Shown here: positions 4,211-42,231 of the stretch, piece after piece
Position numbering within the stretch: the stretch's first letter is position 1
Layout of the letters: each line of letters opens with the position of its first letter
DNA from: Acetobacter sp. DsW_063
GTDB taxonomy: Bacteria > Pseudomonadota > Alphaproteobacteria > Acetobacterales > Acetobacteraceae
DNA: 64,000 nt
Direction: 5' to 3'
NCBI RefSeq assembly: GCF_002153745.1
Contig: NZ_JOPL01000025.1
Span: forward strand, 62,001-126,000
Made by a program: the position numbers and the translations under genes
The notes under the pieces: generated by a model
Databases searched by the model: none
The model's input: the letters and a program-made list of their open reading frames with translations, nothing else
Told to the model about the DNA's origin: nothing

Positions 4211-6169
4211 ATGCGAGTCATCGGACAGTTCTCCCAAAATGTAGCCGTGCGCGTTCTGCTCGCGGGCGCAGCCTTGTTGACCGGAGCGTCAGCCACAGCG
4301 AGGGCTTCCGCCCCCGGCTCGGGCGGCGGCGATGGTGCGGCTGACGCCGAAAGCGGGGCGCGGCTCGCACGTTCCGGCGAACAGTATGCCATGGCGATCC
4401 CCCGTTTCGCGGCGCACGGCGGCGACGATGCCGTAGCGCTCCCACGGCCGCTTTCTTCCGACATTGCGACATTGGTCCGGTCGATATTTCGGCTCCAGCG
4501 GCAGGGCGCATTTCCCGATGCGCTCGCGGCCACGACCCGGCTGACCGACTCGACACTGCTCGGCGACATACTGGCCGAGCGCTATCTCAATCCCGCGTAT
4601 CACCCCACGGCTCTGGAACTGAGGCAGTGGCTCCACGCCAATGTCGACATGGCGGACGCTCCGGCAGTCTTTGCGCGCCTGTCCTCTATGCCGGATCACG
4701 GCGCCCTGCCGTCTCAACCGTCATCAGTGATGCTGGGCGGCGTCGGCGGCGTGAATCGTGACGATCCTTTCGACCGGGCCTTCAGCCGCAATCCGCTGCT
4801 GGACCGGACTGTGGCGGAGCGTGCGACGCAGGGCGTCAAGGGCGCCCGCAGCGCTATTCACCTGATCTCGATAACACCCGGAATGACTGCACCATATGCC
4901 GCCCAGCTGGGCGGTGAGGTCGCGCAGGTCCTTCTGAGCCAGGGGCATGGCGCCGAGGCGCTGGAGACGGCGACCGACGCATTCGTCCGCGGCGACGGAA
5001 AAGTAGGCTTCCCGGCCTATGTCGCCGGTCTTGCGGCCTGGGCGCTTGACCGTAAGGCTGACGCCGCACCCTTCTTCGAAACCGCCTCGCGGACGCCGCT
5101 TGCGACGCCGGAGCTGAAATCGGCCGCCGCGTTCTGGGCGGCCCGCACGCATCGCGAACTCGGCGAAGACAGCGCATTCCGTCCATGGCTGCAACGCGCC
5201 CTGACGGCGCCGAACAGCCTGTACGGCCTGCTTGCGCGCCGAATGCTCGATCGCGCGCCGCGTCATTCGTCCGGCGGTGGCGTGACGAACGCCACGCTGG
5301 AAACCCCCGTGGACGACGTTCCGGTGCGGCCTGTGTTGACCGAAATCGACGTGGAGGCCGTCGCCGCTACCCCGATCGGCAAGCGCGTCTTTGCGTTGTT
5401 GCAGGTGGGCGAGCAGGAACGCGCGGAGAATGCCTTCCGTCGCTACTGGACGAATGTGCAGCACGATACGGCTCTGGCGCGCTCCATGCAGCTGGTGGCC
5501 GAGGCGGCTGGGCTGAACGACCTCGCGCTCGAGATGGAGGACTCCATCCAGAGCCTGACGCAGGCCGCCGATCAGGAGGCGCCCAATCTGCCCTTGCCGT
5601 CGCTGCATCCTCGGCATGGGTTCACGGTCGATCCCGCGCTCGTCTACGCGCTGACCCGTCTGGAATCGAATTTCAAGCCTGGCGCGGTATCCGGTGCCGG
5701 AGCGCATGGGCTGATGCAGTTGCAGCCGGTGACGGCCGGGTTTGTCACAGGCGACGCCGCGCGCTTCACTGCGGCCCCGGAAGCGTTGCACGATCCGGGG
5801 CTGAACCTTGAGATCGGGCAGACCTATGTTCGCTACCTTGCCCATCTGACGGCTTCAAGCGCTGCGGCTTCACCGGACGGCGGGGACCTGATTCGCCTGC
5901 TGGCCAGTTACAACGCAGGTCCTGGCGCGATTGGGCGCTGGGAGGCGGCGAGCGGCGCTGCTGCCGATCCTCTCCTTTACATGGAGCGCCTGCCCAATCC
6001 GGAGACCCGGGTCTACGTGTCGCGGGCGCTGTCGTATCTCTGGATTTACGCTGAGCGTATGAGCCTGCCAACGCCTTCGCTAGAGGCTCTGGTGCGTGGC
6101 GAGTGGCCTGCGTTTGCGGCCGAGCAGACGCTCGCCACGACGCGGGGCCGCTCGCATCTGATTCACTGA
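4211..6169 (+). CDS. Soluble lytic murein transglycosylase (SLT domain)
   Basis: 652 residues. A signal peptide (hydrophobic stretch VRVLLAGAALLTGASATARA) is followed by a long helical region resembling the alpha-superhelical U domain of Slt70-type enzymes. The catalytic SLT domain covers roughly residues 475-610. It shows the expected order of motifs: LTRLESNFKPGAVSGAGA with the catalytic Glu near residue 486, then GLMQLQP, then LLASYNAGPGAIGRW, then the RVYVSRAL segment. The family cleaves the MurNAc-GlcNAc bond of peptidoglycan to form 1,6-anhydromuropeptides, in the periplasm. The ATG at 4211 gives the signal peptide directly; its ribosome site is poor. It lies just upstream of the tRNA-Lys gene on the same strand. 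Confidence 0.92.
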   Translation: MRVIGQFSQNVAVRVLLAGAALLTGASATARASAPGSGGGDGAADAESGARLARSGEQYAMAIPRFAAHGGDDAVALPRPLSSDIATLVRSIFRLQRQGAFPDALAATTRLTDSTLLGDILAERYLNPAYHPTALELRQWLHANVDMADAPAVFARLSSMPDHGALPSQPSSVMLGGVGGVNRDDPFDRAFSRNPLLDRTVAERATQGVKGARSAIHLISITPGMTAPYAAQLGGEVAQVLLSQGHGAEALETATDAFVRGDGKVGFPAYVAGLAAWALDRKADAAPFFETASRTPLATPELKSAAAFWAARTHRELGEDSAFRPWLQRALTAPNSLYGLLARRMLDRAPRHSSGGGVTNATLETPVDDVPVRPVLTEIDVEAVAATPIGKRVFALLQVGEQERAENAFRRYWTNVQHDTALARSMQLVAEAAGLNDLALEMEDSIQSLTQAADQEAPNLPLPSLHPRHGFTVDPALVYALTRLESNFKPGAVSGAGAHGLMQLQPVTAGFVTGDAARFTAAPEALHDPGLNLEIGQTYVRYLAHLTASSAAASPDGGDLIRLLASYNAGPGAIGRWEAASGAAADPLLYMERLPNPETRVYVSRALSYLWIYAERMSLPTPSLEALVRGEWPAFAAEQTLATTRGRSHLIH

Positions 6170-6239
6170 TCAGGCGACTTCTCGTCGATCAAGGGTTGCC
6201 CTGACCCCGTCTAGCATGTACAAGCCGCCCCGTTGGTGA

Positions 6240-6525
6240 GAGCCGGTAGCTCAGTCGGTAGAGCATTCGACTTTCAATGGGAGCGCGGTCGGGAAACCGG
6301 TCGTGGAACAGGCCTTAAATTCGGTGAACGCTCTGGCTCACGCCGTGCCGATACCGAGCCAAGCAAGTCGGTTACGACTTGAAGGTGTAGAGACTTGACA
6401 GGGCCCGCCTAAAGACCTCGGTCCATGGCGAAGATAAAGTCCAGACCACGAACCTTTACGGGCGGCGAAAGCCGAAGTGGTACGTAATCGAATGGTCGAG
6501 GGTTCGAGTCCCTCCCGGCTCACCA
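6240..6525 (+). tRNA. tRNA-Lys(UUU) interrupted by a group I intron in the anticodon loop
   Basis: Exon 1 is 6240-6274 and exon 2 is 6485-6525. Joined, they give a perfect 76-nt tRNA. The acceptor stem GAGCCGG pairs with CCGGCTC; the D arm is GCTC/GAGC; the anticodon stem TTCGA/TCGAA encloses the loop CTTTTAA, so the anticodon is UUU (lysine). The T arm is GAGGG/CCCTC with loop TTCGAGT, and CCA is encoded. Unspliced, the loop would be broken, so the tRNA depends on intron removal. The split falls after U36, the third base of the anticodon. The competing junction (exon 1 ending CTTTCAA) would give anticodon UUC but leaves no proper P1 helix or terminal G. Confidence 0.95.
6275..6484 (+). ncRNA. 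Self-splicing group I intron (IC3-like, related to Azoarcus tRNA-Ile intron)
   Basis: 210-nt intron without an open reading frame. P1 forms between exon CUUU (6271-6274) and intron GGAG (6280-6283), leaving the required U-G wobble at the 5' splice site. P2 is a stem with wobbles capped by a GAAA tetraloop (GGGAAACC). The core has TTAAATTCGGTGAACG, CCGAGCCAAGC, GAAGGTGTAGAGACTTGACA and AAAGTCCAGA, matching in order my recollection of the Azoarcus ribozyme. P7 pairs 6392-6396 (GACTT) with 6437-6441 (AAGTC). A hairpin CAAGTCG/CGACTTG follows the CCGAGCC segment. P9 is ACCAC/GTGGT enclosing CGGCGAAAGCCG. The intron ends in G at 6484, as omega-G must. Confidence 0.93.
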
Positions 6526-6642: not shown

Positions 6643-7416
6643 CTAGATCGACGCCAGATATCCACCATCGACAGGCAGGCACTGCCCGGTGATATAGGAC
6701 GCCGCGTCGGAGGACAGGAAAACCGCCGCCCCGACAAGGTCGTCGACCGCGCCAAAACGTCCGAGGGGAATCTTTGCCTGCATCGATTCGACCCACGTCG
6801 AATTTTCGTAAAACTCTTTCGTCATGTCTGTGTGAAAATAACCGGGAGCGATCGCGTTGACCCGAATGCCGAGAGGCGCCCATTCGGCGGCCAGAGCGCG
6901 GGTCATTCCCAGTATTCCTGATTTGGACGACCCGTAGGGCGTCGCCGTGGGCACGCCGACATAAGAGGTCAGGGAGGCCAGATTGATGATCGCGCCGCGT
7001 TTGCGCCCGGCCATGCGAGTGGCGGCGGCCTGCGCGACGAAAAATGCTCCTTTCAGGTTGGTGTCGATAATTTTGTCCCAGAGTTCTTCTTCGATATCGA
7101 GAGAGGGGCAAACGTCTTCAACGCCTGCGTTGTTGATCAGTACGTCGATGTGGCCGATGGCTGCGAACGCTGACCGAATGCCCGCTACGTTCGTCTGATC
7201 GAGCGCGATCTGTTCGACCGAACCCCCCAATGCTGAAATTTCAAAGGCGGTTTCGGCAAGTGAATCGATTTTGCGAGCTGCGATGATGACGTGGCATTCC
7301 GCCTGGGCGAAGCCCAGCGCGAGCGCCCGGCCAATTCCGCGGCTGGCGCCCGTGATCAGGACGCAACGGTCTTTCAGAGAAAACCGTTGCCACAGCAAAG
7401 ACTCGTCGCGATTCAT
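6643..7416 (-). CDS. SDR-family NAD(P)-dependent oxidoreductase
   Basis: 257 residues, the usual length for a classical short-chain dehydrogenase. The cofactor motif GASRGIG (about residues 23-29) and NNAG (about 93-96) are present. The catalytic Ser is in IINLASLTSYVG, with YGSSK further on giving the Tyr-x-x-x-Lys pair. The C-terminus ends in ITGQCLPVDGGY, typical of 3-oxoacyl reductase or gluconate 5-dehydrogenase-like enzymes. The substrate cannot be read from sequence; gluconate 5-dehydrogenase-like activity is a reasonable guess in an acetic acid bacterium. It ends about 120 bases after the tRNA-Lys gene, on the opposite strand. No partner gene in an operon. Confidence 0.88.
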   Translation of the reverse strand: MNRDESLLWQRFSLKDRCVLITGASRGIGRALALGFAQAECHVIIAARKIDSLAETAFEISALGGSVEQIALDQTNVAGIRSAFAAIGHIDVLINNAGVEDVCPSLDIEEELWDKIIDTNLKGAFFVAQAAATRMAGRKRGAIINLASLTSYVGVPTATPYGSSKSGILGMTRALAAEWAPLGIRVNAIAPGYFHTDMTKEFYENSTWVESMQAKIPLGRFGAVDDLVGAAVFLSSDAASYITGQCLPVDGGYLASI

Positions 7417-41315: not shown

Positions 41316-41888
41316 TTAGGAAAGTAACCCTAATTTGTGATAATTTTCTATGATTTCATCAAAGACAGAGATTTCAGATCGACTCTTTGCAAGAAGCTGC
41401 GCGCCGGACACAGCGGAAAAAACCGCCTGCGCCCGCAGAGTGCGGTCTTCCGGGGAGAGGTTCGCTGAGGTCTGCACCACCGCGCTGAGCCACGTGATAT
41501 TGACGTCGACGAACGTCTGAACCTCTTGCTTCACCACGTCGGGCAGATCGTCGTACTCCGCGCTCATAAAGCTGCACAGACAGAGTCTGTTTCCATTTTG
41601 AAGTGAACGCCTGAATATCTCGGGGTAGCGAAGCAGGCATTGTTGGGGCGAAGGATTGGCTTCTTGCAGTTTTTTTAAATCTGCAAGCGTATCCTCCCAG
41701 TAACGTCGCGCCACGGCCGCGCCCAGGTCGGCCTTGCTGGGAAAATGATAGTATATACTGGCGGCTTTTATGCCGACCTCGTTCGCTATATCGCGAAAAT
41801 TTAGCCCGCCATATCCGTGGGTCTGAGCTGTTCGCTTTGCGACGGCGAGAATGGCTTCTCGAGCATTGGGATGGGCCTTGAGGTTCAC
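41316..41888 (-). CDS. TetR/AcrR-family transcriptional regulator
   Basis: 190 residues. The N-terminal helix-turn-helix is standard: REAILAVAKRTAQTHGYGGLNFRDIANEVGIKAASIYYHFPSKADLGAAV (about 9-58). The C-terminal ligand domain contains RLCLCSFMSAEYDDLP, whose cysteines and position resemble electrophile- or aldehyde-responsive members. It is divergent from a glutathione S-transferase gene, and the shared region holds two operator-like repeats, so autoregulation and control of the transferase are likely. Confidence 0.9.
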   Translation of the reverse strand: MNLKAHPNAREAILAVAKRTAQTHGYGGLNFRDIANEVGIKAASIYYHFPSKADLGAAVARRYWEDTLADLKKLQEANPSPQQCLLRYPEIFRRSLQNGNRLCLCSFMSAEYDDLPDVVKQEVQTFVDVNITWLSAVVQTSANLSPEDRTLRAQAVFSAVSGAQLLAKSRSEISVFDEIIENYHKLGLLS

Positions 41889-41904
41889 CGGGTTGCCGCC
41901 TTTC

Positions 41905-41927
41905 GCCTACCATCTGGCAGATAAGGC
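41905..41927. promoter_or_regulatory. Operator-like site 1 (imperfect)
   Basis: GCCTACCATCTGGCAGATAAGGC, imperfectly symmetric, 17 bases upstream of the TetR start codon. A minus-strand promoter TTGCAA-15-TTATCT would place the -10 hexamer inside it, so a bound repressor would block transcription of its own gene. Confidence 0.55.
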
Positions 41928-41959
41928 TTGACGATGCAATTGCAAAGCGTCACGGTTGC

Positions 41960-41977
41960 CTACCATCTGGAAGGTAG
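41960..41977. promoter_or_regulatory. Operator-like site 2
   Basis: CTACC-ATCTGGAA-GGTAG, symmetric ends with an 8-base spacer, sharing CTACCATCTGG with site 1. Typical size and form of a TetR-family operator; suited to control of the plus-strand GST gene. Confidence 0.6.
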
Positions 41978-42231
41978 ATAACTTTGACGCTGGACGCGCG
42001 TGCCTCAGTTCGTGTCGGCGGGGGGCACCAGAACGGCCCGGGAAGCTGCCTCAACAGCCTTGTCATGGAGAAAATCGCTTTTGAGTCAGGAGCGTTAACA
42101 AAAATTTTTCTAATCACGCGCGAGTCCCGGGACGCAATTTCGTCCGGGTCATCGGCGTGAATTCACTGGCGGTTGCGCTCGCCCGGGCTCTCACGTTGCG
42201 TGTCCCGGCGGGTCTGCAAGGGAAGATAGAG

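Follow-up and report, generated by a model that had tools for sequence, protein, structure and literature searches.

A tRNA-Lys(UUU) gene of Acetobacter split by a small group I intron and its probable descent from phage-borne replacement tRNAs

The window analysed in this study is a stretch of 64,000 nucleotides from Acetobacter sp. DsW_063. Its forward strand contains a tRNA-Lys(UUU) gene that is divided into a 5′ exon (6240-6274), which ends in CUUU (tRNA positions 32-35), and a 3′ exon (6485-6525; UAAUCGAAUGG...), in which the CCA end is encoded. Between U35 and U36 the exons are separated by 210 nt (6275-6484, last base G6484) that have the anatomy of a small, IC3-like group I intron. The gene is preceded by a promoter-like leader (6196-6239, forward strand; TTGCCCT ... 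TTGGTGA) whose spacing matches that of the prophage-borne leaders described below, and its neighbours are the genes of a lytic transglycosylase (4211-6169, forward strand; PF01464, 1.2e-19) and a short-chain dehydrogenase (6643-7416, reverse strand; PF13561, 8.1e-59). With 6275-6484 taken out, ARAGORN identified the joined exons as a 76-nt tRNA-Lys(ttt) with full stems and an encoded CCA. The first-pass annotation of the sequence, which had proposed a perfect 76-nt tRNA-Lys(UUU) interrupted by an insert at these positions, was thus exact. As judged by eye, the cut after U35 is the sole choice that yields both a complete tRNA and an intron-terminal G. ARAGORN run without introns called no tRNA in the unspliced sequence of 6240-6525, and the sole tRNA called in the window by ARAGORN and an Rfam scan at gathering level was a tRNA-Cys elsewhere. 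In its intron mode, ARAGORN mis-spliced 6240-6525 as a tRNA-SeC(tca) with a 192-nt intron, so that automatic annotation may yield a false selenocysteine tRNA. Standard annotation can overlook split tRNA genes, as at this locus, where either no gene was called or a wrong name was assigned.

The predicted intron structure begins with the internal guide GGAG (6280-6283, forward strand, like all helices listed here), which pairs with the exon sequence CUUU (6271-6274) to form P1. As in group I introns, the exon-terminal U is paired with a guide G at the splice site and the intron ends in G (CUUU/GGAG and G6484, by eye). P1 is followed by the GAAA-capped stem P2 (6284-6305), by P3 (6311-6316 with 6400-6405), which encloses P4, P5, and P6/P6a (6311-6405), by P7 (6392-6441; GACUU 6392-6396 with AAGUC 6437-6441), which we take to be the guanosine-binding helix, and by the P8 stem-loop (6406-6430) and P9 with a GAAA-capped branch (6446-6480), the latter two backed by both the drawn structure and covariation. 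All drawn pairs are standard in the window sequence. The U-G pair at the 5′ splice site, the GAAA-capped P2, the 5-bp P7 and the terminal G, all noted in the first reading of the sequence, were found again in the sequence and the drawn structure.

Across 27 aligned introns, 34 of the 55 proposed pairs change on both sides and 90.8% of the cells are paired; the alignment was built without structure and the helices P2-P9 were drawn on the window sequence, which favours that structure. The covariation score of these 27 introns was 0.416, compared with 0.135 in shuffles, none of which reached it (0/500), and a maximum of 0.104 when the pairings were slid. Pairing is complete (100%) in P3, in P7 and at the base of P8, with both sides changed in five of the six P3 pairs and in two of the five P7 pairs. 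The least-kept helices in the 27-intron alignment were P2 (only 67.5% of cells paired), one P9 branch (67.9%) and P5a (76.4%). Covariation thus retains the P3-P8 and P4-P6 core with P7 that characterizes IC3-like group I introns. Scoring with the Rfam group I model, which the first-pass annotation had suggested, gave a match in a permissive scan of 471 nt (RF00028, 6264-6462, E 1.9e-6), but its 32.0 bits fall below the gathering score of 50. The intron appeared neither in the gathering-level scan of the window nor in an RF00028 scan of the own genome, and it is not an RF00028 member by Rfam's own rule; in the family, 84 of 299 genomes match RF00028, 17 of them above the cut-off. The group I structure is better backed by covariation. 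A model built from these introns (R1) assigned 199.1 bits to the window intron, whose sequence is in the R1 training set. Energy folding gave a weak signal (z −1.65, 11/200 shuffles as good), and minimum-energy folding cannot represent the P3-P7 pseudoknot. Taken together, the sequence evidence supports a tRNA-Lys(UUU) gene split by a small IC3-like group I intron, from which a spliced tRNA-Lys(UUU) is predicted.

Known bacterial host tRNAs of group IC3 self-splicing introns include Leu(UAA), fMet, Ile(CAU), and Arg(CCU). Part of this list is given in the accessible text of PMC8450103 and PMC5733544. Consistent with the first reading, to which tRNA-Lys(UUU) was unfamiliar as a host, no bacterial tRNA-Lys(UUU) host was found in the open-access literature, and this tRNA is a host for which no description has been found so far, for an intron class that is known. 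'Group I' introns of 22-49 nt in cyanobacterial tRNAs, tRNA-Lys(CTT) among them, were claimed in 2017 (PMC5733544, as far as its accessible text goes), but we do not regard them as a precedent because they are far too short for a group I core.

The assembly that contains the window has 3.03 Mb in 176 contigs and is 68.9% complete. Among its 25 tRNA matches above the cut-off are an intact tRNA-Lys(CTT) and no intact tRNA-Lys(TTT), which is the count of further tRNA-Lys genes that the first-pass annotation had called for. AAA codons should not be read by tRNA-Lys(CUU), so that their decoding probably requires the split gene. A second group I intron of the same genome resides in tRNA-Arg(CCU), a classical host. 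No intact tRNA-Lys(UUU) was detected in any of the six Acetobacteraceae genomes with the split gene (6/6, E 0.01), whereas each of the seven relatives searched that have no intron contains one match spanning tRNA-Lys(UUU) 1-76 in full. The genomes of Brytella acorum (G079), Gluconacetobacter dulcium (G300), and Ga. sacchari (G376) are 99-100% complete, compared with 68.9% for the own assembly and no available value for Acetobacter sacchari and A. nitrogenifigens. The split gene is the only source of tRNA-Lys(UUU) found in the own genome and in its split-gene relatives. Because neither the own assembly nor the five relatives contain an intact second tRNA-Lys(UUU), growth likely depends on the ribozyme.

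In a blastn search of 397 Acetobacteraceae genomes, 6260-6500 had four full-length relatives (the window itself, B. acorum, Ga. dulcium, and Ga. sacchari; 83-87% identity), all of them with the split after U35 and an intron of 207-210 nt. Scanning named genomes with a sequence pattern retrieved five records with the split gene, namely B. acorum, Ga. sacchari, Ga. dulcium, A. nitrogenifigens, and A. sacchari. The window locus is syntenic and nearly identical in the two Acetobacter species. The split gene of A. sacchari has 0/286 changes and lies in an aligned stretch of 2,382 bp (gene included) that is 97.6% identical to the window, and that of A. nitrogenifigens has 2/286 changes, both in the intron, within a 4.8-kb stretch (gene included) of 91.9% identity. 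Relative to the window, A. sacchari has an insert of ~5 kb just after the split tRNA gene (L204:2381-7357), which was considered as a phage relic and dropped, as four ORFs tried had no Pfam match. In the intron tree, the five Lys introns of the family form one clade (100/100). One locus (L070) was left out of alignment A1 and the trees because a nearby half gene had caused a wrong 352-nt boundary.

The copy in Ga. dulcium lies on a much larger element, the only one found whole, as a prophage whose two ends lie on a single contig. The 5′ half of a tRNA-Lys gene (1-39) at C3:114897 and the 3′ half (31-76) at C3:153920 bound this element of 38,993 bp and share a 9-bp core, ACTTTTAAT, which corresponds to the anticodon loop with its border. 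First on the element comes a tyrosine integrase gene (PF00589, phrog_1), 153 bp beyond the core, and the 20 ORFs scanned include genes for tail sheath, tape measure, baseplate, terminase, portal, and major head. A complete split tRNA-Lys(UUU) gene is located 122 bp inside the right end, and its intron splits the same core ACTTTTAAT. The intact tRNA-Lys locus of another genome (G042) represents the empty site: its left flank is ~91% (91.5%) and its right flank 89.9% identical to Ga. dulcium, with the right-flank match beginning ~1.4 kb beyond the 3′ half. Since both flanks match this intact locus, the two halves in Ga. dulcium are one native tRNA-Lys gene cut in two, and the element is, as judged from its sequence, a myovirus prophage inserted in the native tRNA-Lys. 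A tyrosine integrase whose short core lies in a tRNA left unreconstructed and an element-borne tRNA of the same isotype are features of tRNA-dependent lysogeny, as described by Guerrero-Bustamante and Hatfull in 2024 (PMC10865867, accessible text), and the Ga. dulcium element shows both. No intact host copy was found, and the prophage-borne tRNA-Lys of Ga. dulcium may be required for lysogeny.

The integrase of this prophage had only weak matches in a phage collection (25-27% identity). It matched two IMG/VR records, one of which has the tRNA 5′ half only; the split tRNA was found in neither record. In Ga. sacchari, the left half is kept and the intron-bearing gene is joined to the host right flank, with two contigs ending in the same sequence, inverted. 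No copy of the Ga. dulcium integrase was found in this genome, and we read the locus as a probable decayed or badly assembled form of the prophage arrangement.

The leader of the window copy resembles that of these prophage-type copies. The 60 nt in front of the window gene have 28/60 ungapped matches to the leaders of Ga. dulcium and Ga. sacchari, two almost identical sequences (shuffle p = 0.0008 and p < 0.0002, respectively), compared with 14-19/60 for seven native tRNA-Lys leaders and 16/60 for B. acorum, whose leader is unlike the phage leader. Based on this leader match and on the single clade of the family's Lys introns, we propose, with moderate confidence, a phage-borne gene as the ancestor of the window gene. 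The argument is indirect, because the B. acorum leader does not resemble the phage leader and the link between the window and the phage copies consists of the leader (28/60) and the intron tree only. A four-sequence integrase profile had no match in C142:1-126000 and no core lies beside the gene, so that the window was not filed as a lysogeny locus and no att-bounded prophage was recognized there. The one 9-base core match, 13.5 kb upstream (C142:54721), lies at the end of a small reading frame and is probably due to chance. The flank that borders the native gene in relatives was located 13 kb from the window gene, inverted and without a tRNA-Lys half after it, and the other native flank was not found in the own assembly, which is incomplete (68.9%).

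The layout recurs, in full or in part, at tRNA-Thr(GGU), tRNA-Leu(UAA), and tRNA-Lys(CUU) and in the Gordonia phage Daredevil. For tRNA-Thr(GGU), the 5′ half (1-37) and the 3′ half (30-75) flank a reversely oriented split copy within 1.6 kb in one genome (G209), where the locus gave no integrase match. In another (G024), the 5′ half is followed after 107 bp by a split copy and an integrase, and the 3′ half sits on a separate contig. Two further genomes (G112, G088) have the split copy only. None of these four genomes contains an intact tRNA-Thr(GGU), and G275 has one. For tRNA-Leu(UAA), two genomes (G285, G014; layout read from one element end) show a native-looking 5′ half ending in GGACTTAAAA, then an integrase and then a split tRNA-Leu of different sequence. 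This integrase has 394 aa and N-terminal SAM-like domains above the cut-off, while its PF00589 score of 20 bits is under the cut-off.

At the class level, 14 of 385 genomes matched at E 1e-16, and eight split tRNA-Lys loci were identified, of which five are UUU (L340, L341, L346, L350, L351) and three CUU (L344, L347, L348). Two of these eight loci, both Lys(UUU), were assigned by eye. A tRNA-Lys 5′ half is situated just upstream in two of the eight, 77 nt away in G769 (UUU) and 121 nt away in G770 (CUU), and the other six had no half gene within the stretch fetched (at most ~10 kb per side, less on short contigs). A five-sequence integrase profile had no match at any of the eight. In a scan of 109 loci, which include duplicates and represent 94 distinct genes (70 of them Arg(CCU)), junction-spanning half genes were found beside one Lys locus (L117) and two of the 11 Leu(UAA) loci (L044 and L046). 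The remaining 9/11 split Leu(UAA) loci were scarless in the stretches scanned, and the four Thr(GGU) loci were examined apart. As a control, 0/84 Arg(CCU)-intron loci had a junction-spanning partial copy; for 45 of these the sequence extended 1.2 kb or more to either side. Because each locus was scanned with the exons of its own gene, halves that have diverged may have escaped detection; short non-junction matches at L098, L103, and the viral locus L283 were not counted, and a 21-base match at L358 (E 0.016) was not used.

Host tRNAs were assigned with a tRNA-splicing script, which gave no host for seven of the first 88 loci (by eye three Thr(GGU), one Asn(GUU), and two Leu-like, with L050 left unassigned), for one of 30, for 11 of 80 viral and for two of 13 class-level loci, the last two being Lys(UUU) by eye. 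Doubtful script labels of a few Leu-like genes (L094 and L098 as Ile, L107 as Ala, and L045 as Leu(CAA)) were not used. Several further split tRNA genes were observed. The tRNA-Asn(GUU) of G143 is split by a divergent group I intron (L030, intron 1511-1757; RF00028 78.5 bits, by eye), with no half gene beside it in L205. Split tRNA-Arg(UCU) genes occur in four genomes of one genus, g76 (L087, L106, L108, L115), a split tRNA-Thr(UGU) in G357 (L138), and intron-containing Leu-like tRNA genes (GGCCCTCTGTCGG... and similar) with approximate borders at L076, L102, L107, and L142. The window gene also matches 1263 of 72,556 plasmid records over the intron core. These are mostly enterobacterial, and the two matches inspected (L196, L197) lie beside an aac(3)-IId region.

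Daredevil contains, unannotated at 41862-42124, a tRNA-Lys(UUU) gene split after U34 by a 238-nt intron, which scored 162.9 bits with the intron model (its own sequence is in the training set). Its core CGGACTTTTAATCCGC lies between the split tRNA and the integrase, 153 bp from the former and 397 bp from the latter, and the T-loop of the tRNA reads ATCGAAA, not TTC. The intron falls outside the Acetobacteraceae Lys-intron group and its insertion site is one base away, and for these two reasons the arrangement is probably independent. Daredevil forms clear plaques according to the accessible text of PMC10865867, and the split tRNA may therefore not support lysogeny, or may fail in the host. The same text states that only Mollymur, not Daredevil, encodes its own tRNA, a statement that the split tRNA-Lys(UUU) qualifies.

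We consider it fairly probable, from the sequence comparisons, that the window gene originates from the replacement tRNA of phages with tRNA-dependent lysogeny, with the intron located in the core, and that the prophage decayed after loss of the native gene. The phage would integrate via the short core ACTTTTAAT in the anticodon loop of the native tRNA-Lys(UUU), thereby breaking that gene, and would supply its own tRNA-Lys(UUU) copy beside attP. With the intron inside the core of the replacement, transcription and self-splicing would restore the mature tRNA, and the split DNA would no longer be an integrase target, so that the rescue gene would be safe from integration or deletion by the phage itself or its later relatives. 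After loss of the native gene, the cell would be locked to the phage copy, and the prophage would decay around it; a scarred locus would come first, followed by an isolated split tRNA gene like that in the window. More tentatively, and as a reading that may well fail, we suggest that a ribozyme in the integration core acts as a DNA-level shield of the replacement tRNA, that such shields have arisen more than once (in Lys(UUU) of Gluconacetobacter prophages, in Lys(UUU) of Daredevil, and in the Thr(GGU) and Leu(UAA) elements), and that they leave bacteria depending on a phage-descended ribozyme.

The shield is the least certain step, to which we would give slightly less than an even chance, because introns and integrases both favour anticodon loops. 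Anticodon loops are where bacterial tRNA introns and many integrases act, and the position of the intron within the core could be a coincidence. An intron is also not required for tRNA-dependent lysogeny, as PMC10865867 mentions none in the tRNAs of its phages; the word 'intron' appears a single time in the accessible main text, within the title of a reference. A role of the intron in protection from anticodon nucleases was rejected, since splicing would yield a tRNA with the same loop.

An alternative that we consider unlikely is that the intron is a selfish passenger, which spreads by reverse splicing between anticodon loops and uses phage tRNA genes as vehicles, with no gain for host or phage. 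It draws on the viral data, as 117 IMG/VR viral contig stretches match the group I core pattern. We analysed 80 of these 117 loci (L222-L301), and the script assigned 69 of the 80, many of them near-identical, to split tRNA genes, mostly Leu(UAA) (55), followed by Arg(UCU) (6), Lys(UUU) (5, including Daredevil) and one each of Glu(UUC), Ala(UGC), and a CAU tRNA; 11 had no assignment. Phage tRNA genes with group I introns thus look common. A 2014 review states, in the part accessible, that every phage intron then known interrupted a protein-coding gene, even though phage tRNAs are numerous (PMC3984707), and no report of group I introns in phage tRNA genes was found in the open-access literature (PubMed Central; most subscription journals are outside this scope). 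In a 595-kb phage (LR756511.1, L190), we observed by eye a group I intron in a Leu-type tRNA (~904-1602) with an apparent internal HNH endonuclease frame. Two integrase queries and a four-sequence profile matched only 1/80 viral loci, Daredevil's own record, and no convincing second junction copy was found in the others, which contained a few 10-12 base matches to Leu(UAA) loops. These other viral introns are therefore not evidence for a shield and agree with a passenger, as do the varying insertion sites (after 34, 35 or 36). Two viral-contig matches of an 18-base junction pattern lay in terminase-like coding sequence of one kind and were discarded as chance. A passenger by itself does not account for half-gene elements that carry a split version of the very tRNA they break.

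We also judge it improbable that the intron is an ordinary, vertically kept tRNA intron, which was inserted in chromosomal tRNA-Lys genes as in tRNA-Arg(CCU), while phages captured the split gene by chance and it has no role in integration. Scarless split tRNA-Lys genes in three Acetobacter genomes, in Brytella, and at 6/8 class-level loci agree with such a history, and one cluster (91/84) spanning several families holds most Lys introns of Alphaproteobacteria, among them every one located after U35. Arg(CCU) introns are frequent in the family (84 script-assigned loci, also L001; 70/94 distinct genes) and, as described above, have no scar at any of 84 loci. This same control speaks against a purely vertical history, as anticodon-loop half genes occur beside split genes for four bacterial tRNAs and beside none of Arg(CCU); in addition, the native gene has been lost and the leader in the window resembles that of the phage copies. 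As only one whole element was found and most split Leu and class-level Lys loci are scarless, we slightly reduced our confidence in descent from a lysogeny replacement tRNA and raised that in an ordinary intron. That the window gene is a decayed, unspliced pseudogene, with tRNA-Lys(UUU) located elsewhere in unassembled sequence, would agree with the 68.9% completeness of the assembly and the RF00028 score under the cut-off, but is very improbable given that five further genomes, three of them rated 99-100% complete, also have no intact copy, that the gene is more conserved than the surrounding stretch, and that all drawn pairs are standard.

Bacterial tRNA introns are usually regarded as neutral. 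Descent from a shielded replacement tRNA would offer a testable adaptive role for a bacterial self-splicing intron, and lysogeny suggests a one-step route by which an essential tRNA gene may come to depend on an intron. Like group IC3 tRNA introns, the window intron is ~200 nt long, sits in the anticodon loop after a U, and has a U-G pair in P1, a GNRA-capped P2, a P3-P9 core, and a terminal G. It differs from them in its host, which is tRNA-Lys(UUU) here and Lys(CUU), Thr, Arg(UCU), and Asn elsewhere, and in that some copies reside on elements whose integration core is the same loop.

The system is likely a new variant of tRNA-dependent lysogeny. As described in the accessible text of PMC10865867, both combine a tyrosine integrase with a core of ~10 bp in tRNA-Lys-TTT, a tRNA that is not reconstructed, and a phage tRNA of the same isotype. 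In contrast to the phages of that report, the replacement tRNA is here split by an intron inside the core, the prophage is an alphaproteobacterial myovirus, and the tRNA may persist after the phage is gone. The authors of that paper speculate about the integration of a second plasmid into the plasmid-borne tRNA, a problem that an intron in the core would solve. Islander genomic islands (PMC4383910, accessible text) likewise use a tyrosine integrase and a tRNA target, but rebuild the interrupted tRNA at the junction with sequence from the island, whereas the tRNA appears to be broken and replaced in our case. With IStrons, as portrayed in the accessible part of PMC4227781, the arrangement shares a ribozyme that is tied to a mobile element and makes an insertion harmless; unlike in IStrons, the ribozyme resides in the replacement gene and not at the insertion site, and its mobility would be provided by the phage integrase.
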